DNA of 64,000 nt from Gautieria morchelliformis (lineage: Eukaryota > Basidiomycota > Agaricomycetes > Gomphales > Gomphaceae), in assembly GCA_015179125.1 (NCBI GenBank), contig WHVA01000392.1:46147-110146 (forward strand), written 5' to 3'. Positions 49,541 through 64,000 of the stretch are shown one piece after another (position 1 is the first letter of the stretch; each line of letters opens with the position of its first letter). The position numbers and the translations under genes are program-made. The notes beneath the pieces are model-generated. The model searched no databases and was not told where the DNA came from. It saw only the letters and a list, made by a program, of their open reading frames with translations.

Positions 49541-50606
49541 AAGCCAAAGGAGAAGCCACGACCAAAGATCGGAGGCCATCGGATCACTGAGGAATATCTC
49601 CAGAGCCTCAGTGAGGCTGAGTGTATCTGGAGGTTCCGGTAAGCAACACCATGTGTCTGCCATGCCATTATAACTAAAATATTCAACTTTGCACTAAAGG
49701 TTTACCCTAGATGAGCTGAGAAACCTCAGTCAGGTTATGGAGCTGCCAGGTCCTCTCATAACAAAGTGCGGTTTCCGCTCCTTCCCCTTCGAATCTCTCA
49801 GCCTTCTGTGCGCACGGCTTCGCAGCCCAGAGGATTTATGGTCCCTGGCCACCAAGTACGCACGCCCCTAGTCTGCGATCTCAGAGATCGTGAATGAGAT
49901 GGCGTCTTTTATAAACACAAGATGGGGAGGGCTTCTGGCCTGGGATCATGCAGGGATCCTGAGCCAGAAAAATTTGAAGGTATATGCAGCGGCACTACAT
50001 GATTTCGGGGCTCCAACCAGCACAATCATCGGCTTCATCGATTGCACCATACAACGGACATGCAGGCCTGTGGATAATCAAGAGCTTGCTTACACAGGTT
50101 ATAAAAAATTTCATGGCATGAAATTTCAGGCGGTCATCACACCTAACGGACTAATCGCCCACTTGGCTGGCCCGTATCGCGCACCCCAAAACGACAGTGG
50201 TGTCCTGAGGGAGAGTGGACTCGTGGGTCTCATGGAGAGGTATGCGATTCAGGAGCACTCACAGGAGGGGGATCCAGCCGAGCGGCGATTTTATCAAGTG
50301 TATGGGGATTCAGCCTATGGAGTCAGCCCCTATGCTCACGTTGGAGAACTCACAAATGATGAGCGAGCCTGGAACTCAGCCATGGGTGGGGTTCGCATCT
50401 CGGTGGAACACGGCTTTGGGCTGGTCACGCAGGACTGGCCATATCTGCAATGTTTCTGGAAACACAAAATCCTTGGCAACCCCTGTGGTCTTCTCTACCG
50501 GGTGGCCGTGCTACTGACAAATGCTCATGCATGTGTCATGCCGAATCAGACTTCCCAGCGTTACTCCTGCCCGCCGCCCTCATTGGAAGAGTATTTTCAC
50601 GCGTAA
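49541..50606 (+). pseudogene. PIF/Harbinger DDE transposase, copy 2
   Basis: This is homologous to the transposase at 5171-6420. Exon 1 is cut by the minisatellite; it resumes at GGHRITEEYLQSLSEAECIW. A 61-bp GTAAGC...AAAG intron lies at 49639-49699, at the same place as in copy 1. Exon 2 reads FTLDELRNLSQVMELPGPL and onwards, with TAG at 49869-49871 where copy 1 has Gln. The catalytic triad is kept: Asp (50040-50042, GFIDCT), Asp (50307-50309, YGDSAYG), Glu (50406-50408, SVEHGFG). It ends at 50606. One stop plus the lost N-terminus make it inactive as it stands. Confidence 0.87.
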
Positions 50607-51439: not shown

Positions 51440-52640
51440 GATCATGAATTTATGCACGTCCTGAACTGTAACTTGCGGGACTACCGTAATGTGTGGGACT
51501 ACCACAAAAGGATATGGATCGCGTCCTGCTCCGGCGGCATACAAAAGACCTCGGAGAGTTTGGCCCACGGGTCAAGTGCGTCTAGGCGAGTCTCTGAAGG
51601 CTGGCCACCGGGAAATAATTCGGCCACGGCCGGTCGTTTGACCTTGTAGAGGATGGGCTGGGCAGCAGCGACACCAACCGTATGAGTGCGGGTGCCGCTT
51701 CGTTAAAGATGGCTTTTTTGAGGACAGACGTGTTATCATCGTCCTTTAACTCATTGGGACCTAGGAAGAACTTGAAAGCAGTGATGTAGCAATGGATTTT
51801 GTAGCTGGCCATCATTTCGTTCTGGTAACAAGACTTTGATGATAGTACTAGTGCTGTAGATGCAGATCGAGATAGGGAGCTCATCTCGGTGTCTACACTC
51901 CCCCCTAAGAAAAGAGAAATGACGTTGAGAGCGTTATCGGGACCTGCATCTATCTCTTTTGGTCAGCCTGATCAATCCAGGCTATCGGAAGATTCGGGAC
52001 GACCGGCAGTTTGGTCCAAATACCACGCTTTCCCGCCTCTATGTCTTTTGGAGCAACTGTTCGATCTCCATCATCGCTTCACCTGGTGAATCAAGCAGGT
52101 AGGTATTTAAGTATGTGCTCAATGCACTTCCCAGATCAACCATCCGTTCATGGTCAACTTGCGTTTATGCTTTCCAGGACGATGAAAATGGCTTCTTTGT
52201 CGTCATCAGGAAAACCGAACAGCATGTATATACCGTACATACGATATATACGTCTGATACCACGGCTACATGAGCCCCGGTCTGAGACACTGCAGACCCC
52301 CCCTATCGTATGTACAGTATAGCTGATCTGGGATTGCTATATTGTACATACCGTATATATGGTATATACAGTATATACCATACATAGATGCCAAACCTTG
52401 TAAATTATTACTACAGTGTACATAGCGTATATATCGTATAGACAGCATACTACGGAATAGGAATCTTAATAATAATATCACTCTAAATAATTCAAGTGAA
52501 CATTTGACCAAGATATTGTTATTATTGCTAGTACTAGTACTAGCAGTATCGGAATACCCTACTGGCTAATACTACCAACGATTAATTCAAGCTCATGTAA
52601 TAGTAGTAGAGCTAGTAGCCGTCGTATGCACAGCCACCAT
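51440..52640. other. Unassigned region with a minus-strand open frame and TA-rich DNA
   Basis: A 100-residue minus-strand frame (51884-51582) reads MMASYKIHCYITAFKFFLGP and FNEAAPALIRLVSLLPSPS. It looks protein-like but has no recognised domain. At 52220-52460 there is alternating TA-rich sequence with repeated GTATATACCGTACATACGATATATACG-like palindromic motifs. Small CTAGTACTAG repeats lie near 52533. No gene assigned. Confidence 0.35.
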
Positions 52641-54740
52641 GGTGCACACGAAGTCTTCCAAACTTTCTTCATTGTCAAAGGAAACATAGTTGTCAACGGC
52701 GTTCAGTGGTATGCCCGCTGCTACACTAAAGTGTCACTGTGAGTCAGTAGTCATGTTGAAATAGCAAGATAGTATATTAACTTACCGATCCTTATCCCAC
52801 AAACGTTTCTGCAATGTGATGCAGTTATCCGGATGACTCGATGAGAACACATGAAGGGAATCCATATATGTGGTGTAATGCGATCCATACACCTTCGCTT
52901 CAAGTGTTGGTGCCTTGCGATTGGAAGGATCCAAGGTTGGAACGTCTACATCGAGGGAATAATGTATCTATTGCAGTTGAACTTCAGTCACGGAATATAG
53001 ATAAAATAAACAACTTACCGCCACACAAGCAAAACCAATGACCGGAAGGGGTACAGGACAGAACAAATGAGGTGAAGCCGCAGCAAGCGATGTTGTTCCA
53101 GTGAACATGATGTGGAGGACGGCCGTCTCTAAAGAGGGGTGATTGAACCGACCAGTCCTGGCCAGTTTCTAGGAAGGTAATATTGAGCGGATAACATAGC
53201 GTGAAGATGGAGGCTTACCCCCATTTGCCCTGTTACTATCTCACCCTCTGCGCAGAATCCAACCTGTCTGTAGAGAAAGTTGCTGTTCTTTGCCAGGTTC
53301 GCAGCGATGGTCTTCCTGAGCTGTAGGCTTGCGTATTGTTCAAGGTGAAATGAAGGGATGATTCAGAGGCCAATCTTTCGCATATGGGCACTGCGCCAGC
53401 TGCGCCCATTTCTGATAAACTGCATGTGAGATGACAAAAATCAGTAGATAAAAAGTAAGAGATAAGACATATGACTTACATATTGCCGAACATGCTCATT
53501 AGCTGGTATAATCGTCACGGTGTTGCAGATCTCCTGTGCGTGGGACCATGCGTCGGCTGTCCATTGTGTTGTGATACCAGCTACCTCCGGAAACATGTGC
53601 TCGAGGACTAGGTTGGACTTGAAGATCGCGTCGCCTGCTACAAGTCGACTCCTCATGGGGGGAGGGGCCAAACTCAACGTTTTGCCATCCCATGTAATGT
53701 TTTCATCAGCAGAATCGGCGATGGTGGGTGCTGGACTGGCAGGGTAAGATGGAGGGGTGATACTGGAGATAGCTGGCGAGGACAAAGTGGTGGATGGAGC
53801 AGGGGAGAGAGTTCATTGCGAAGGCTGAGGTGAAGGATTGAGCCTGGCATGAACCGCTTTCAACTCGGTGGCAAGGTCGCCACGATGCTTCATGGGTTTA
53901 CTGCGAGTGACGGGGGCCAAGTGCTGGGCTTCAGTGGAAACCGGTGGTCGAGCAGAAGGCTGGGGAGCCTAGCAGAAAAAAGGTCAGACAATATAAATTA
54001 ATTGCGCCGTACATACCTCAGACTGTTGCCCGACAGTGAGTTCCTCGAGCTCGTGTTGGATGCTAGAGCTAACAGTGGCACACCATGCCATAATCTGCGA
54101 CTCACCAGCAGAAGGTGGGCATCGACTGTCATCGACAGTAATGTCGATATGGTCGGCCTTGGTGTTGTTACCTGTCACACCAGCATAGTTACTGGGCTGG
54201 CTATCGTCCAATGGAAAACCTGGATGGTTGGAGAACATATCGGGATCGAGGTTGGAGGAGAGGGGGAAATTATGGCCAAGCGAAAAGGTTTTGAGGTTGC
54301 CGAAGGCCATTCCGTTTAGAAGATTATCGTCGATTTCGGTGTCAAGTGCATCATTAGGAACGGTAGAGCAGTAATTGCTTGGTGTTTGTGACTAAAAAAT
54401 AAAATCAATAACAGGCTTGACTGCATAAAAATAACATAGGACTTGCCTGGAGTGTTTGCTGGATTAGAGGGCGCTGCAACTAAAAAATAAGATCAATAAG
54501 CTGCATAACTACATAAAAATAAAATAGGACTTGCCTCAGGGGGCGTTTGCTGGTTAAGAGGGTGCTGCAACTAAGAAATAAAATCAATAAATGGAATAAC
54601 TACATAAAAATAACATGTGAACTTGCCTGGGAATCCCTCCATGCCCATGATGCCTGTGGCCTGGCACCGCTGAGACCTGCGAGGCTTTTGAATCGCTACT
54701 AGTAGACCGAAGCTGCATTAGAGTAGGAGGAGAAATGATT
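52640..54740 (-). pseudogene. Hypothetical Agaricomycete gene with microexons (left arm)
   Basis: Reading leftwards, a frame near 54700 (RFKSLAGLSGARPQASWAWR) joins two microexons, 54570-54535 (LQHPLNQQTPPE) and 54479-54447 (LQRPLIQQTLQ), through GC-AG introns. Then follow exon 54391-54017 (LDTEIDDNLLNGMAFGNLKT, DHIDITVDDSRC), exon 53968-53480 (APQPSARPPVST, NITWDGKTLSLAPPPMRSRL, LVLEHMFPEVAGITTQWTAD) and an exon from 53419 (FIRNGRSWRSAH). Downstream signals reach GIPLNAVDNYVSFDN near 52690. TGA occurs in exon 53968-53480 and after MRKIGL. The later exons resemble basidiomycete proteins of unknown function (perhaps DUF6532-like, not certain). No start was found; the 5' end coincides with the palindrome centre. 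Confidence 0.5.
53671..54731. repeat. Inverted repeat, left arm
   Basis: The sequence from 53671 to 54731 is the inverted counterpart of 54822-55656, with a spacer of about 90 bp. Matching anchors: CTCCTACTCTAATGCAGC on both sides of the spacer, the GC-AG microexon cassettes, the TTAATTTATATT...TCTGACCTTTTT intron and the PAISSITPPSYPASPAPT coding stretch. This arm has two microexon cassettes and the 375-nt exon (54017-54391). Confidence 0.9.
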
Positions 54741-54821
54741 AAGTGGGAAGATTAAAGAGTGTGGTAGAAGTGCACCGACGAATGAAGTGAAAGTAGAGGG
54801 CAAAGGGTAAGAGAATTTGAG

Positions 54822-55656
54822 CTCCTCCTACTCTAATGCAGCCTCGGTCTACTAGTAGCGGTTCAAAAGCCTCACAGGTCTCAGCGGTGCCAGGCCGCAG
54901 GCATCGTGGGCGTGGAGGGATTCCCCAGGCAAGTTCACATGTTATTTTTATGTAGTTATTCCATTTATTGATTTTATTTTTTAGTTGCAGCACCCTCTTA
55001 ACCAGCAAACGCCCCCGAGGCAAGTCCTATTTTATTTTTATGTAGTTATGTAGCTTATTGATCTTATTTTTTAGTTGCAGCGCCCTCTTATCCAGCAAAC
55101 ACCCCTGAGGCAAGTCCTATTTTATTTTTATGTAGTTATGCAGCTTATTGATCTTATTTTTTAGTTGCAGCACCCTCTTATCCAGGCAAGTCTATGTTAT
55201 TTTTATGCAGTCAAGCCTGTTATTGATTTTATTTTTTAGTCGCAGCACCCTCTTATCCAGCAAACACCCCAGGCAAGTCCTATGTTATTTTTATGCAGTC
55301 AAGCCACCAGTCTGAGGTGTGTACGCACAGTTAATTTATATTATCTGACCTTTTTCTGCTAGGCTCCCCAGCCTTCTGCTCGACCATCGGTTCCCACTGA
55401 AGCCCAGCAGTCGGCCCCCGTCACTCGCAGTACCCATGAAGCGTCGTGGTGACCTTGCCACCGACTTGAAAGCGGTTCATGCCAGGCTCAATCCTTCACC
55501 TCAGCCTTCACAACGAACTCTCTCCCCTGCTCAGTCCACCACTTCGTCCTCGCCAGCTATCTCCAGTATCACCCCTCCATCTTACCCTGCCAGTCCAGCA
55601 CCCACCATCGCCGATTCTGCTGATGAAAACATTACATGGGATGGCAAAGCGTTGAG
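54822..55656. repeat. Inverted repeat, right arm, with four microexon cassettes
   Basis: Plus-strand copy of the gene in the left arm. It carries microexons 54985-55019, 55075-55109, 55165-55185 and 55240-55272, each preceded by TTTTTTAG and followed by GCAAGT. The 375-nt exon of the left arm is missing here: sequence jumps from CAGTCAAGCCACC to CAGTCTGAGGTGTGTACGC. Homology stops near 55656 after GGCAAAGCGTTGAGTT. Confidence 0.9.
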
Positions 55657-55702
55657 TTATGTTGAGTATGTACGTCGTTCCACTGTCTCCCTTTGGCATT
55701 AG
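54900..55702 (+). pseudogene. Hypothetical gene, right-arm partial copy
   Basis: Plus-strand copy of the left-arm gene, with the exon reading RPQASWAWRDSPQ-like sequence, the microexon series, then exon from 55359 (PQPSARPSVPTEAQQ; KRRGDLATDLKAVHARL; SSPAISSITPPSYPASPAPT; NITWDGKALSY) which runs into unrelated DNA and stops at 55702. Where the left arm has TGA (53816 region) this arm keeps CGA. Two microexons are 35 nt rather than 36, which would shift the frame, and the main N-terminal exon is deleted, so it cannot encode the same protein. Confidence 0.5.
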
Positions 55703-56255: not shown

Positions 56256-59200
56256 ATGCCCCCAAAGCTTGCAACTGGAGTAGCTACTGAACGGTGCAAG
56301 CACTGTGCTTACTTTTATGCCAGTCTAAGTGGCCATCTTGCACAGTCAAAGCAGTGTGGAGATAAACACAGAGCTGGAGGGCAGCGGTAGCTTAGTGGTA
56401 AGCCCACCCTAGGGGTTGAGCGTATAAGCTAAGGCTGAGCGTTCAACCCTGGCCCCTCCGGAGATAACACCCTAGACACTCTGGCAAATTTCTGCCACAC
56501 CAATTGCCAATAACATCCGATTGCCTGCCCCAAATATGAATGGTGGTATACTCAACTATCCCTTCCAATTCAGAACCGACCCTTTAGGAACATGATGACA
56601 CCTACTCCAATTATCTAATCCATCCAACCGCATTGGAGTACCGGGTACCTGTACTATCATGATTTGTCACACTAACAGCCAGAGGCTGGGCCAGAAACAT
56701 CGGCAGTAGACTGCAGCTGCTGCCACTCGTTGGGGTGTGGGAAAGGTGTCAAGGTGGTGTCGCAGCTGAGGGGTACAAACTGAAGTACACATGGGTATTA
56801 CATGCCCAAATAAGCCGTGGAAGGTCAATTACTATGTGGTTTATGGGTTGGACTGTTTGGCTTTAAAGGGGTGCTGAGGGGAGTATTGGTGTCTCGGCAG
56901 CATGATCATCCTTATATACCAAAAACACACCCCGCTTCACACAAGCACGGATCAGCTCAGGGGTCACCCACTGAGCACATGCAGAGACAGCAAGGATGGT
57001 TAGATTACAAGGGACAAGTTAGAAAAATGTATGCATCGTCTTACATAGGGCAAGGCCCCAAAAGACAAAAATAGATATAAAAAAAAAAAAAAAAAAAAAA
57101 AAAACACAGAGCTGAACAGACTACTATTTATGCCTCAGCACTCTATTCCAAATATGGAGCCAGATCATCAGGCTCTCAACCCACTTATACTCAGCATGCA
57201 TTTCAGGCTGCAGAGTCTTCATCTGTGCTTAGCTGGAAGCCCACAACTCCTGAAAGACCTGGTCAATCCAAGCGACCTCATTTTTTCTCTCCCACTCGTT
57301 CTATAGATGGGGACATTATCATGGAACAAATCGCCAAAATCGTCATTCCCCAAGAATTGTCTGAAGCAGAGCCTACTGCTTCTGCTTCAAACAGGGTGCA
57401 CCCAACAAACATAGTTCCGCCAACAAATGTTGGAATGGATATTTTGAAGTCAGGCCATTTGCTGATGCATCTATTACTTATGGGAAGGGAGAAACTGCCT
57501 TTGAGCATATCAGGCGAAACTGGGAACATTCAGATATTCCTGAATACCCATTTACTAGTCGAGCTGAATGGAGCTTGGTAGAGTGGCTTGGAACCTCAGG
57601 AATTTCAAATGGTCAGATTAATAGCTTGCTAAAAACGAAATGGGTAATTTGTTGCTCATGGCAACAAAAGTATAGAACTAACATTGTTATGCCATTCTTT
57701 CAATTACAGATGCAGGATAATCCACCTTCATTCAAGTCAGCTAAAGAAATGTGGAAGCAAATTGATGATCATATTGAAGCTGGGCCTGCCTGGCATGTCA
57801 AAGAGGTTATCTTGCCTGAGGCACCAAATGAGCCTCAAATTCTTTACTATCGGGATATTGTGGAATGCTTGAAATACCTTGAACAGAATCCTGCATTTGA
57901 TGGCTTTATGAATTATGAGCCTGTCCTATGGTCCTCTGATGAAGAGCTCAGTGCTGCTTCACGTGTATATGGAGACATCAATACTGGAAATGCTTGGTAT
58001 GAGTTGCAGTCCAAGGCACCTGAAGGTGTAACTATCTTGCCTGCTATTCTGGCATCAGATGCCACCCATGTTACAAATTTCTCTGGAGATGGGAAGGTGC
58101 ATCCTGTATATGCTTCAAATGGACATATCCAATCTGCTATATGTAACCAGCCAAGCCGACGTGCATTTATCCTAGTTGGATTCATACCTGTTTGCAAATT
58201 TGGAAAGACTGAATTCCCAAACAAAACCAAGGATGAGAAGATGCCTGGTCGATTACAGGCAAGGTTGTTTCATCAGTGCATGTCAATCATTACAGAAACC
58301 CTCAAGGATGCAGGCAAAAAGCCCATTCGTATGCCAGATACAAAGGGGGATCTCCGCTGGTTTCTGATTTTTCTAGTCCTCTATCTTGCAGATAAGGAGG
58401 AGCAAAATCTAATAGCATGCCTTGGAAAGAACTCATGCATAACATGCTTGGCTGAAACCAAGGATTTGGGAAATTATGAAATCTGTGATGTTCCTACTGG
58501 GAATGCTATCCTAAGCAAGATACAAAGTGTCCGTGACACTGTTGGTCCAGATGCAGATACATGGACCTTTATCATGGCAGCTATCAGTGTGCAACTAAGT
58601 GGTGTAGAGCATCCATTCTGGAAAGACTTGCCACACACTGATATTTGCCAAGTTATTTGCAATGATGTGCTCCATGGACTTCATAAGGCTTTCAATGACC
58701 ACACTGCCAAATGGTGTAGGAATATTGTTAGGGATTATCAAATTGACAAGTGGTTCCGTCGCCTCCCAAAGCAGCATGGATTCAGACATTTTTCTTCAGG
58801 CATATCCAAGGTTTCTCAGTGGTCAGGAAGAGAATGGAAAGATCTTGAAAGGAACTTCCTCCCAGTAATCTATGGAGTTGTTAAAAGCGATATCATCCAG
58901 GCAGTCAGAGCTGAACTGGACTTCATTTTTACTGCACAATGGAAACACCTGAGTGAAGGGACTTACAGCATCTTTCAGAGTTTGATCAAATCTATGATAT
59001 CCATCGAGAAGCTTTTGTCAGGGATGGTGGCTGCCAAGTCAAGAGAGGGGAGGATAATTGGGCAATACCTAAAAAGCATAGTCGAAAACATTATGCTGAT
59101 AATATATGATGGGCTGGTGCAACAAACAATTATAACACTGAGATATCAGAGCGTTATCACATTGATATGGTCAAGTGGGCATTTGAACATACAAATCGGA

Positions 59201-60274
59201 AGGAATATCTTGCCCAAATGATCCTTTGGTTAACACGTCAGGACAAGATTCGACAGCGGTCACTTTATTTCCATTGGATTGACAATGACTGGTCCGACAA
59301 CAATATTGAGACTGGAAACATAATAGGCCTACAAGTTGAAAATCATGATGCAGATGATGATGATGATGAGGCTATCATACAACCAGATGTAGTGGGAGAT
59401 ATTGAGGGAGTTCAATCTATGTCAGACATTACTGTCCGTCGACTCAAAGCAAAGGGTCACATGTCTCATAACAAACCTTCACATGCAGTTGCTCGTCGTC
59501 CTCCATTTCCATGGAATGATATATATGCTATTGCTACCATGTATCAAATCCCACAGCTTGTGAAAGAACTTGTTACGTTCCTGCTTAAGCAGAAAATGCC
59601 TGATATTACAATTCAACGCCTTAATCAGTTGCTTCAAACTACACCATTACCAGACATTTGGCAGAATATAGCAGTCTGGACTCAAATATCCATTGCCTTA
59701 CCAGTGGTTGGAGTTTCTGATGATACTGTGGAGAGACGAGCAATTCTTGCCCGACTCAAAACTGCAAAGAGTAATATAGCTTGTTTTGACACTGTGCTTC
59801 TTGATCCACATGGTGAGGAGGGAACTGAACAAGTCGGATTGGCCGGTAAAGATACCTTATTTATTTAAACATTTTCAATCATTTCTTACACGCATTTTTA
59901 TAGGACTTCGCATAGCACAAGTGAGGCTGATATTTCCAGCCTCAAAGGATGTTACAGGCAAGAAAAAGGAATTGCCTGGAGGACTTCCAGTACCCAAACT
60001 ATTTGCATATGTTGAATGGTTCTCCAAGCCACATCCAGAGCCATCTAAATATATTGACATGTTTGAGGTAAAAAGGCTGCGAGACAAGAATGGGGAGAAA
60101 CAAGGAGGGATAGTTCCAATTGAATGGATTGTACAACCATGCCCCCTTGTTCCACGGTATCCCCAAGGTGATGTAGGACAGTTGGACTTTGATGAGTACA
60201 CATGTTTGGAGAAGTATGACAGGTTTTTCATCAATTCGTTTCATGATCAACTTACATATCAAACAGTGGGGTAA
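56256..60274 (+). pseudogene. Plavaka-type transposase, interrupted by a SINE
   Basis: Plavaka is a CACTA/EnSpm-related family of fungi. From the ATG at 56256 the frame encodes a C2HC-type zinc finger (CKHCAYFYASLSGHLAQSKQ then C), then is cut by a SINE. It resumes in the same frame at 57105 (HRAEQTTIYAS). After a shift near 57432 come YFEVRPFADASITYGKGE, a 66-bp intron (57644-57709), YYRDIVECLKYLEQNPAF, GVTILPAILASDATHVTNFS, VYASNGHIQSAICNQPSRRA, CITCLAETKDL, VICNDVLHGLHKAFNDHTAK and FRHFSSGISKVSQWSGREWK. A shift near 58978 moves to FDQIYDIHREAFVRDGGCQV, with TGA near 59110. A 58-bp intron (59846-59903) joins VGLAG to LRIAQVRLIF. It ends NSFHDQLTYQTVG at 60274. Clearly inactive. Confidence 0.87.
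56377..57101 (+). mobile_element. tRNA-headed SINE inside the Plavaka gene
   Basis: The insertion starts GGAGGGCAGCGGTAGC and shows RNA polymerase III promoter boxes: A box TAGCTTAGTGG (56388-56398) and B box GTTCAACCCTG (56441-56451), spaced as in tRNA genes. It ends with a poly(A) run of about 26 (57079-57104). The sequence AAACACAGAGCTG flanks it (56364-56376 and 57102-57114), the target duplication of LINE-type target-primed insertion. About 725 bp is long for a SINE. The body encodes nothing convincing, so movement would depend on a LINE elsewhere. Confidence 0.88.
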
Positions 60275-60642: not shown

Positions 60643-61120
60643 TGTAAGGGCAACCCTGGCTGGTTGTGGAGATCACACTACCACACAACTGACAAGGGGA
60701 AATCCAAAGTATGTATAAATGAACAGAGTATACAAGGAAGGGGATTCTCACCTGACAAGGGGAAATCCAAAGAGAAAAGTCTAAGGACCCCCAATGTCAG
60801 CGAGCCCATATTATACTACGCTGCGCAGCCAGGGACAACATTTGGCACCTGCCATCAACCCTGCATCCCCCTGACCTCCCTGACCCTTGATCAACCCTTG
60901 ATGCCACCTATTATGCGAGTCGCTTGATTTCCAACACTGTTCCGAGAGCGGAAGTTGGAAATTGGAGTGGAACTGGCAAGGCGAACAGAACTGGTGGAAG
61001 TTCTCCCAGAAGCGGAATCATTTCCGAAAGCAGAGGTGGAGATGGAATCGGAACCGGAAGCGGAAGCGGAGTCGGAAATGGAGTCGGAACTGGGAATGGC
61101 AAACAGGGTGTCCCCTGACA
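60643..61120 (-). mobile_element. Solo LTR, family C copy 1
   Basis: In plus-strand terms it starts TGTAAGGGCAACCCTGG and ends GTGTCCCCTGACA, 478 bp. It is flanked by perfect AAGGC repeats (60638-60642 and 61121-61125). It contains CTGACAAGGGGAAATCCAAAG twice (about 60686 and 60753) and a CGGAA-rich microsatellite-like stretch at 61040-61100. It is the LTR of the chromodomain element at the window's right end. Confidence 0.94.
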
Positions 61121-61263
61121 AAGGCCAAGGAAGACAGTACTACAATGCAGACACATTAGGCAAAGCAGTTACGGTGCTAAAACTGTACATAGTGAGCAAT
61201 CAAAATATATACAATCACTGAGTAGGAAATGGAATGAGTTCAGGATGTGAATCACTCCAATAC

Positions 61264-61719
61264 TGTCAGGGGACACCCTGTTTTCCATTTCCAGTTCCGA
61301 CACCGCACCCAGTTCCGACTCCATTTCCGACTCCGCTTCCAGTTCCGATTCCATCTCCGCCTCCGCTTTTGGAAATGATTCCGCTTCTGGGAGAACTTCC
61401 ACCAGTTCTGTTCGCCTTGCCAGTTCCACTCCAATTTCCGACTTCCGCTCTTGGAACAGTGTCGGAAATCAAGCAACTCGCGTAATAGGTGGCATCAAGG
61501 GTCGATCAAGGGTCAGGGTGGTCAAGGAGATGCAGGGTTGATGGCGGGTGCCAAGTGTTGTCCCTGGCTGCGCAGTGTAGTATAATACGGGCTCGCTAAC
61601 ATTGGGGGTCCTTAGACTTTTCTCTTTTGATTTCCCCTTGTCAGGTGAGAATCCCCTCTCTTGTATACTCTGTTCATTTATACATACTTTGGATTTCCCC
61701 TTGTCAGTTGTGTGGTAGT
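61264..61719 (+). mobile_element. LTR, family C copy 2, cut by the chromovirus insertion
   Basis: It starts TGTCAGGGGACACCC and follows family C in plus orientation up to GTGTGGTAGT at 61719, about 34 bp short of the expected end. The next base begins the minus-strand LTR at 61720. GTAGT (61715-61719) would be the left target duplication of the 61720 element; its partner would lie beyond the window. The two LTRs make a head-to-head inverted pair. Confidence 0.85.
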
Positions 61720-62199
61720 TGTAAGGGCAACCCTGGCTAGTCGTGGAGATCACACTACCACACAACTGACAAGGGGAAATCCAAAGTATGTATAAATGAA
61801 CAGAGCATACAAGAGAGGGGGTTCTCACCTGACAAGGGGAAATCCAAAGAGAAAAGTCTAAGGACCCCCAATGTCAGCGAGCCCGTATTATACTACGCTG
61901 CACAGCCAGGGACAACGCTTGGCACCCGCCATCAACCCTGCATCCCCCTGACCCTTGATCGACCCTTGATGCCACCTATTATGCGAGTCGCTTGATTTCT
62001 GACACTGTTCCGGGGCGGAAGTCGGAAATTGGAGTGGAACTGGCAAGGCGAACGGAACTGGTGGAAGTTCTCCCAGAAGCGGAATCGTTCCCGAAAGCGG
62101 ATGCGGAGATGGAATCGGAACCGGAAGCGGAGTCGGAAATGGAGTCGGAACTGGGTGTGGTGTCGGAACTGGAAATGGAAAACAGGGTGTCCCCTGACA
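61720..62199 (-). repeat. 3' LTR of the chromodomain gypsy element (family C)
   Basis: 480 bp, starting on the minus strand at 62199 with TGTCAGGGGACACCC and ending at 61720 with GGTTGCCCTTACA. The adjoining minus-strand tract CTAGAGGGGGGGTGA (about 62200-62214) is the polypurine primer. The first part of the LTR continues the pol reading frame to a stop at 61979. Confidence 0.93.
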
Positions 62200-64000
62200 T
62201 CACCCCCCCTCTAGCGTGCTGCGTCCTCGAAGCGCGGGACACAAGGGATTGAAATGCCAGCGAGCGGATTCGGCGAGGGGCACCTGGATGTGTCCTGTAG
62301 AACTCCCGGAGTTTGTCAGGAGCGGAAACATCTTGCTCCGGGACCCACGAATTCTCCTCGTACCCATACCCTTCCCATTTCACGAGGAATTGGAGTCGTC
62401 CTCGCACAAACCGGCTGTCCAGGATCCGTTCTACCACGTAGTGCTCTTCCCCATCTACAATTTCTGGCGGAGGTGGCGGATGAGCCTTCCGACGTGGAAT
62501 TGGGTCCTCAAGCATAGGGAGTAACTTCACCATGTTGAAGACGGGGTGGAGGCGGGACATGGACATCGGAAGTCGGAGGCGGTATGCATTCCGTCCAACC
62601 CTCCGCGTCACTGTGAAGGGCCCAAGGTAGCGGTGGGCAAGCTTCTGCGAAGGGCGTGTGGTGCGGATGTCACTTGCATCCAGGTACACCTTGTCTCCAA
62701 CTTGGTACTCTGGGGCAGGAACCCGGCGTCGGTTGTAGTACCTTGCCATGTCATCCTTGGCCTTCGCAAGGGCCGACTTGGCTTCCGAAAGGGTGGAGTC
62801 CATGCGGTCTCGGAACTCATTGACCGTCTCGAGTCGGGAGTCAGCCTGGCGTGGTTCGAAGCCCATCCGCGGGTGTCGTCCGGAGTCGAGCATGAAGGGA
62901 GTCTGTTGCGTGGCGGAATGGACATGGTTGTTGTATTGGAATTCCGCCAGCGGAAGTAGCTCATCCCAGTCATCCTGCCTCTAATTGACAAAGAGGCGGA
63001 GATATTGCTCCAACTCCTGATTGACCCGTTCCGTCTGTCCGTCACCCTGCGGATGGTACGCTGTGGTGGTAGCCAGCTTTATGCCGAGCAGGCGGTAGAG
63101 CTCCCGAGTCAGTTCCGCGACAAACTGCGGACCTCGGTCGGAAACGACTTGCTTCGGGAGCCCATGCAACTTCCAGACATGTGCAAGGAACAGGCGGGCC
63201 GCTCCGAGGGCTGTGATCGTCGTGTGCGTCGGAATGAAGTGGGACACCTTGCTCACCGAATCCACGACGTTCATGATCGCGTCGTAGCCATGAGACTCTG
63301 GGAGTTCAACGATGAAGTCGACACTGATGGTGTCCCAGCGGGATTCGGGAATCGGGAGCGGAACAAGTTCTCCGACGGGCGGACGTCGTTGCGCTTTGGT
63401 TCGGAGACAAAGGTCACACGTCTTCACGTACTGTCCGATGTAGCGGGACATCTGAGGCCACCAGTAATTCCGAGCCACTAACTCCAGCGTCTTCCACCTG
63501 CCAGCATGCCCAGCGACCCGCGTGTCATGGTGCTGGGACACGATGCGACGGCGGAGGTCCGCCCCACCCGGAACATAGACCTTGCCTCTGAAGTGGAGCA
63601 GTCCATCACGTTCCGACCATTCCGCTGCCCGTACAGACCGTGAGTGCCCCTTCCGGAGTTCCTCCACTGCCTTCACCACCGACTCCTCCTTCTCTCCATT
63701 CCGGTACTGCCTCCGGATATCCCGGAGCATTTCCGCTTCCGCCCCAACTGCAGTTACTCCTTCTAGGGCACGGATTGCAAAGAGACTTGGGCGGAGCAGT
63801 GTCATATCCGCGTTGTCTCCACTTCCGCTTCCGTGATCCGCGCGGCGGGATAGGGCATCGGGCTTGCCCATGGTGCGGCCGGGGCGGTGGTGGAGCATGA
63901 AGTCAAACCGGGACAGGTGTAGGGACCACCGTGCTTGTCATCGGTTCAGCTTTTTAGCCATGCGGAAATACTCGAGGTTCTTGTGGTCTGTCCAGATCTC
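61979..64000 (-). pseudogene. Chromodomain Ty3/gypsy (chromovirus) pol, 3' half
   Basis: The frame enters from beyond the window in RNase H (EIWTDHKNLEYFRMAKKLNR), is broken by TGA at 63938-63940 and continues through the integrase: zinc-binding HHDTRVAGHAG...CDLCLRTKAQ, catalytic SVDFIVELPES, QVVSDRGPQF and GDGQTERVNQELEQY. A TAG at 62981-62983 interrupts it before DDWDELLPLAEFQYN. The GPF/Y-type end (KLAHRYLGPFTVTRRVGRNA) and a chromodomain (YVVERILDSRFVRGRLQFLV, KWEGYGYEENSWVPEQDV; about 62440-62320) follow. The C-terminus continues through the polypurine tract into the LTR as a Ser/Asp-rich tail. Chromodomains direct integration to heterochromatin in this group. Inactive because of stops. 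Confidence 0.93.

Follow-up and report, generated by a model that had tools for sequence, protein, structure and literature searches.

Multiplication of an intron along with its flanks has already been published for a basidiomycete gene. CNN00420 of Cryptococcus neoformans contains repeats of about 107 nt that carry a full intron and exon ends; their copy number varies among strains, and slippage or unequal crossing-over has been proposed (PMC2395259). In TOUCH3 of Arabidopsis and other internal duplications an intron is copied whole with flanking exon (PMC4974935), and in human paralogues new introns have come from internal tandem repeats at exon-intron boundaries (PMC2812944). Variable tandem exon/intron units lie near transposable elements (retroelements) in the 90-bp-exon LRR genes of Tetrahymena (PMC6564038). 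Among transposons, PlavakaB elements, described in 2025, encode a Plavaka transposase and a cargo gene between the termini CATCA and TGATG (PMC12730594).

We analyzed a 64-kb stretch of DNA of the mushroom-forming fungus Gautieria morchelliformis (the window, meaning the whole stretch), which forms the end of a 110-kb contig in a 122-Mb assembly and contains an intron-carrying tandem repeat in each of two inverted arms. This repeat probably forms the 5' end of two divergent genes of a PlavakaB-like transposon, and was probably multiplied before the element spread. As in CNN00420, the gene is that of a basidiomycete, the repeats hold introns and the copy number is variable. However, the introns of CNN00420 are of the GT-AG type with EST and strain-resequencing support, and the gene is single-copy and, in the excerpted report, is not presented as belonging to a transposon (PMC2395259), whereas the Gautieria arrays have predicted GC-AG introns and belong to a multi-copy transposon. 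TOUCH3 differs in being a plant gene, for which the excerpted text mentions no GC-AG array (PMC4974935), and the Tetrahymena LRR genes differ in having from 1 to 51 exons, each exactly 90 bp long, phase-2 introns and leucine-rich repeats (PMC6564038). The Gautieria element resembles PlavakaB in its transposase, in having a cargo gene and apparently in its CATCA and TGATG ends, seen here in different copies, but the cargo described for PlavakaB in the excerpted text is TET/JBP, and that of the Gautieria element is a DUF6532 gene (PMC12730594). Among the titles and abstract openings surveyed, no GC-AG example of an intron-carrying tandem array was found. What is new here is thus the GC-AG donors and an array common to two transposon genes; the known mechanism is not overturned, and the locus offers a tidy but largely decayed case of intron and exon gain.

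The repeats were detected in the window by Tandem Repeats Finder as a 91-bp period in 2.7 copies (54391-54630, score 311), a 90-bp period in 2.9 copies (54923-55185, score 419) and a 75-bp period in 2.0 copies (55108-55260, score 236). The two arms are inverted with up to 99% complementarity over 93 nt, and the octamer AGGCAAGT occurs eight times in the 64-kb window, all eight times inside the two arrays. Neither the arrays nor the clustering of the octamer is due to chance. Repeat finding, complementarity and the octamer count all bear out the proposal of the earlier note that tandem intron-plus-microexon cassettes with GC donors stand in both inverted arms. The array unit consists of a GCAAGT...TTAG intron of 54-56 bp and an exon piece of 21-36 nt, with seven complete introns in the window (three left, four right). 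More exactly, the repeated unit comprises a complete GC-AG intron, about 30 nt of the next exon and the last few nucleotides of the preceding exon. GC-AG introns are a rare, non-standard type. All seven complete introns have an AG|GCAAGT donor, a TTGAT motif, which we take to fit the YTRAY branch-site consensus, and a T-rich AG acceptor.

On the minus strand, the left arm carries predicted GC-AG intron 1 (56 nt, 54571-54626), a 36-nt microexon (LQHPLNQQTPPE, 54535-54570), intron 2 (55 nt, 54480-54534), a 33-nt microexon (54447-54479) and intron 3 (55 nt, 54392-54446). On the plus strand, right-arm exon 1 (93 nt, 54836-54928) is followed by intron 1 (56 nt, 54929-54984), a 35-nt microexon (54985-55019), intron 2 (55 nt, 55020-55074), a second 35-nt microexon (55075-55109), intron 3, a second intron of position-2 type (55 nt, 55110-55164), a 21-nt microexon (55165-55185), intron 4 of position-3 type (54 nt, 55186-55239), a 33-nt microexon (55240-55272) and a fifth intron truncated to its donor half (34 nt, 55273-55306); the four complete introns are again of GC-AG type. 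The inverted homology extends over exon 1 and the array and takes in part of exon 5, the right side being without most of exon 4. The right-arm copy of exon 5 (55363-55658, plus strand), an N-terminal coding part in common with the cargo gene, is frameshifted. The cassette numbers given in the earlier note, two microexons on the left and four on the right, are therefore correct, with three and five intron copies (the last one truncated), as are the 36- and 33-nt lengths on the left and the unequal exon number of the arms. Its unit size of 75-90 bp needs adjustment to 76-92 bp when measured from donor to donor, although the repeats themselves stand; its common intron end, TTTTTTAG, is present in six of the seven introns, but the first left intron ends in TTTCTTAG; and its interval 54447-55272 leaves the third left intron just outside. 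The idea that every added unit is in frame fails in the right arm, where the exons measure 35, 35, 21 and 33 nt and the following shared exon is frameshifted; each added unit would bring an in-frame exon in the cargo-side arms at most. In the left gene of the window, exon 1 measures 92 nt, is thereby 1 nt short and does not share the frame of the microexons, and exon 5 contains a stop. Given these lesions and the frame disruption by both 35-nt exons on the right, the window array is a remnant of the arrangement rather than a functional example.

The left arm is the 5' end of one of two head-to-head genes, and the right arm probably that of the other. A degenerate DUF6532 (PF20149) cargo gene occupies 52596-54718 on the minus strand, as delimited by a gene model and by the deposited protein P0005 from the same contig, which covers the C-terminal part of the gene, maps to 52596-53656 and matches PF20149 at 2.2e-16. 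The cargo N-terminus and three pieces, searched against Pfam, gave no family for any of the four. In the right flank, an open frame of 548 aa on the plus strand (57575-59218) matches the Plavaka transposase domain PF18759 with E = 7.5e-83; it shows a 100% self match and no internal stops, within an open stretch of 618 aa. The start codons at 54718 (minus) and 54836 (plus) are separated by 117 bp (54719-54835), a probable shared promoter. The right side beyond 55658 leads toward the N-terminal part of the transposase gene, and the deposited model P0004, from the copy on contig C227, fuses right-arm exons with sequence of which the end maps to window positions 57443-57556, in the same frame as the open frame at 57575. 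Judged from this model and this frame, the transposase gene would have the right arm as its 5' end. On its left side the element is bounded by CATCAGGAAAACCGAACAGC (52204-52223, plus strand), a terminus placed at an alignment border common to four copies: the border CATCAGGAAAACCG, beginning with CATCA, is common to the window and the sister loci L030, L031 and L038, L031 diverging further in. The right end, CTTTTCCTGATG (TGATG), was seen only in the pair of copies on contig C626, both of which have the same flank there. For the copy in the window no right terminus was found, nested insertions lying on that side, and no copy with both termini, as needed for recognizing a 2-3-bp target-site duplication, was recovered among the window, L030, L031, L038 and the C626 pair. 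Since the left and right ends match those published for PlavakaB, the DUF6532 gene most likely sits inside a PlavakaB-like element.

To compare sister copies, a 250-bp array query was run against the genome, which gave at least 26 matches on at least 13 contigs. All 14 stretches around matches outside the window contain at least one such intron, and 12 arms, counting that of the window, are followed by the cargo gene. Nine of these 12 were parsed for both microexons (L036, L037 and L038, which are damaged or have fewer units, were omitted). The 36-nt exon is kept in all nine and the 33-nt exon in eight, that of L034 measuring 28 nt; the nine arms share one ancestor, so equal exon lengths amount to few independent observations. 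Their donors are GCAAGT at 23 of 27 sites and GT at none, and a donor has been lost in some sister copies. The right arms are less regular. The exon pieces of the six composite right arms measure 36/36/33, 35/35/21/33, 35/33/33, 21/33, 33 and 33 nt, and the shared exon 5 is frameshifted in all six; the right arm of L033 has 36- and 33-nt exons, but the first contains a stop. Intron copies per arm range over one, two, three, four or five, truncated ones included. A whole intron and flanking exon are contained in the unit, and the copy number varies between homologues. L027, a sister that has the window's SINE-like insertion, possesses one right unit fewer, which indicates that the unit number still changes, though in broken genes. 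In L030, L034, L035, L036 and L038, exon 4 opens with another unit-like stretch, of which 18 nt are missing in six copies, an in-frame deletion. L039 and L040 are single-intron fragments. At a further locus, L056 (C490:91800-95300), the same head-to-head arms were observed with the arrays deleted on both sides. DUF6532 exons were also found on nine further contigs (C125, C208, C235, C236, C408, C485, C492, C605 and C942). Eight DUF6532 loci were considered as outgroups (L048-L055), and none of the eight upstream stretches contains exon 1 or an array intron within the approximately 2.1-2.4 kb covered at each, beyond which an array would be missed.

The arrangement can be followed in two sister copies that keep the frame through exon 4. 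In L030 and L031, removal of the three GC-AG introns, with AG|GCAAGT donors and AG acceptors, leaves an open frame that starts at the ATG, includes both microexons and lasts until exon 4 ends. The first 400 nt of L030 have the three AG|GCAAGT sites as their top donor-like sites, matching CAGGTAAGT at 8, 8 and 7 of nine positions, and the best GT site there matches at 6 of 9. We enumerated donors with at least 5 of 9 matches near the three introns with nearby acceptors, intron retention included. Of 168 donor/acceptor combinations in L030, 26 yield an open frame that reaches exon 4, none of them with GT donors alone and none with any intron retained. Since no GT-only combination is open, GC-AG splicing is the best reading, and there is a fair but indirect case from the genomic sequence that the array introns are spliced in this way, with AG|GCAAGT as the donor, as the earlier note had assumed. 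No copy intact over the whole gene was seen among the copies examined, L030 having a frameshift in exon 5, and no spliced, intron-less copy was seen, since none of the 57 genome matches listed for the joined exons crosses a junction. Changes at codon positions 1/2/3 were counted in a masked alignment of 10 of 13 rows (L033, L036 and L037, badly aligned, were dropped). Exons 4 and 5 gave 48/40/86 in the 10 copies, a third-position excess that points to selection on the protein in the past.

An unlikely alternative is that the array is a non-coding 5' minisatellite, with translation beginning downstream and the GC-AG look being incidental. The deposited protein models could be taken to agree with it, since they skip the array or read part of it: none of the six uses a GC donor of the array, P0002, P0005 and P0006 begin downstream of it, and P0001, P0003 and P0004 reach the array or its acceptor by way of GT donors that lie inside array introns or before them. 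The two 35-nt units and the 28-nt unit, which disrupt the frame, point the same way, as does the codon-position count upstream of exon 4, with 12/8/8 changes and no third-position excess in exon 1 and 3/3/5 changes in the microexons, whose 23 codons give no power. A non-coding array is, however, hard to reconcile with the reading frames of L030 and L031, each of which stays open from the ATG across both microexons and enters exon 4 in frame, with the retention of the 36- and 33-nt lengths in nearly all parsed cargo-side arms, or with the donor, TTGAT motif and T-rich acceptor that accompany every complete window intron, even though some sisters have lost a donor. Real introns of the ordinary GT-AG type, with GT donors located 4-33 nt inside, are very unlikely: P0001 and P0004 are modelled in this way, but in L030 these donors fit CAGGTAAGT at 5-6 of 9 positions and the GC sites at 7-8, and all-GT combinations leave no open frame, and we rejected their use on these site scores and the splice enumeration. 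Introner elements, mobile introns inserted repeatedly at one spot, would account for near-identical introns within one gene but are highly improbable and were rejected, as every repeat includes the neighbouring exon piece and so exceeds the intron, and the genome matches listed fall only in this gene family and not in many unrelated genes.

The history of the favored arrangement, a multiplied intron-carrying unit at the 5' end of two transposon genes, was approached with a tree built from 23 short intron sequences, taken from the window and from eight further loci; it is midpoint-rooted and without support values. Position-1 introns and position-3 introns each form one cluster across copies. 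Position-2 introns form no single cluster, those of the window and L030 grouping together and those of L033, L035 and L036 lying apart. The grouping of introns tends to follow position rather than copy, which suggests that the three introns were probably already there before the element spread. The earlier proposal that exon number changed after duplication of the arms holds in that the arms differ, but the three introns are probably older than the spread of the copies. The position-2 intron of L035 has as its neighbours in the tree the single introns of the fragments L039 and L040; being nearest a position-2 intron, these fragments may represent deletion products and not the ancestral state, and their ambiguous placement in the tree does not date a one-intron state. 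Compared by eye, the right arms appear to have acquired one extra unit each of the position-2 and position-3 types. The unit junctions (AACACYCCAG beside exon-1 ends TTCCCCAG) fit duplication via a short C-rich match.

We propose the following order of events as a probable model. The ancestral gene would have had one such intron, and tandem duplication, by slippage or unequal exchange, would have produced three introns and the 36- and 33-nt frame-keeping microexons, a direction that we infer. Exon 1, the array and the Q/P-rich exons together make up an N-terminal module that stands, in inverted orientation, before both the DUF6532 cargo and the transposase-side gene. The element would have spread next, with the unit number continuing to change in the decaying right arms. 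Within one genome and a dozen sisters, intron and microexon number can be traced beside frame preservation and decay, with GC-AG donors, and a transposon cargo gene and, presumably, a transposase gene have an inverted N-terminal module in common.

The lengths of the cargo-side microexons, 36 and 33 nt, imply that they could be left out or included with the frame intact. In L030 the first AG of each array intron (TTTTAG) is also followed 6 nt later by another (TTGCAG or TCACAG), and as both acceptors keep the frame, variants of two residues are possible. It is a speculative and distinctly unlikely extension that one inverted duplicated 5' module (promoter, start codon and GC-AG array) serves both transposase and cargo, the array acting as an evolvable adjuster of the length of a Q/P-rich N-terminus, with GC donors that may permit regulated microexon inclusion.

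Rfam and tRNA scans of the window gave no matches. A SINE-like insertion with a tRNA-like head, whose A and B boxes were labelled by eye, was observed upstream of the transposase frame (56377-57101), with an A tail at 57079-57104 and a repeat of about 12 bp at its flanks. Of the sequences compared (the window and L027-L040), only the window and L027 have this head, and the insertion site is empty in L028, L029, L031, L032, L033 and L038. A repeat of about 480 bp occurs three times in direct and inverted orientation at 60643-62199, nested in the element, and is also present at several other loci. Pieces of a Ty3-type retroelement (integrase core, H2C2 zinc finger, Tf2-1-like SH3 and chromodomain) lie on the minus strand at 61979-63898, and an open frame for a DDE_Tnp_4 endonuclease at 49890-50603 represents a second DNA-transposon gene.
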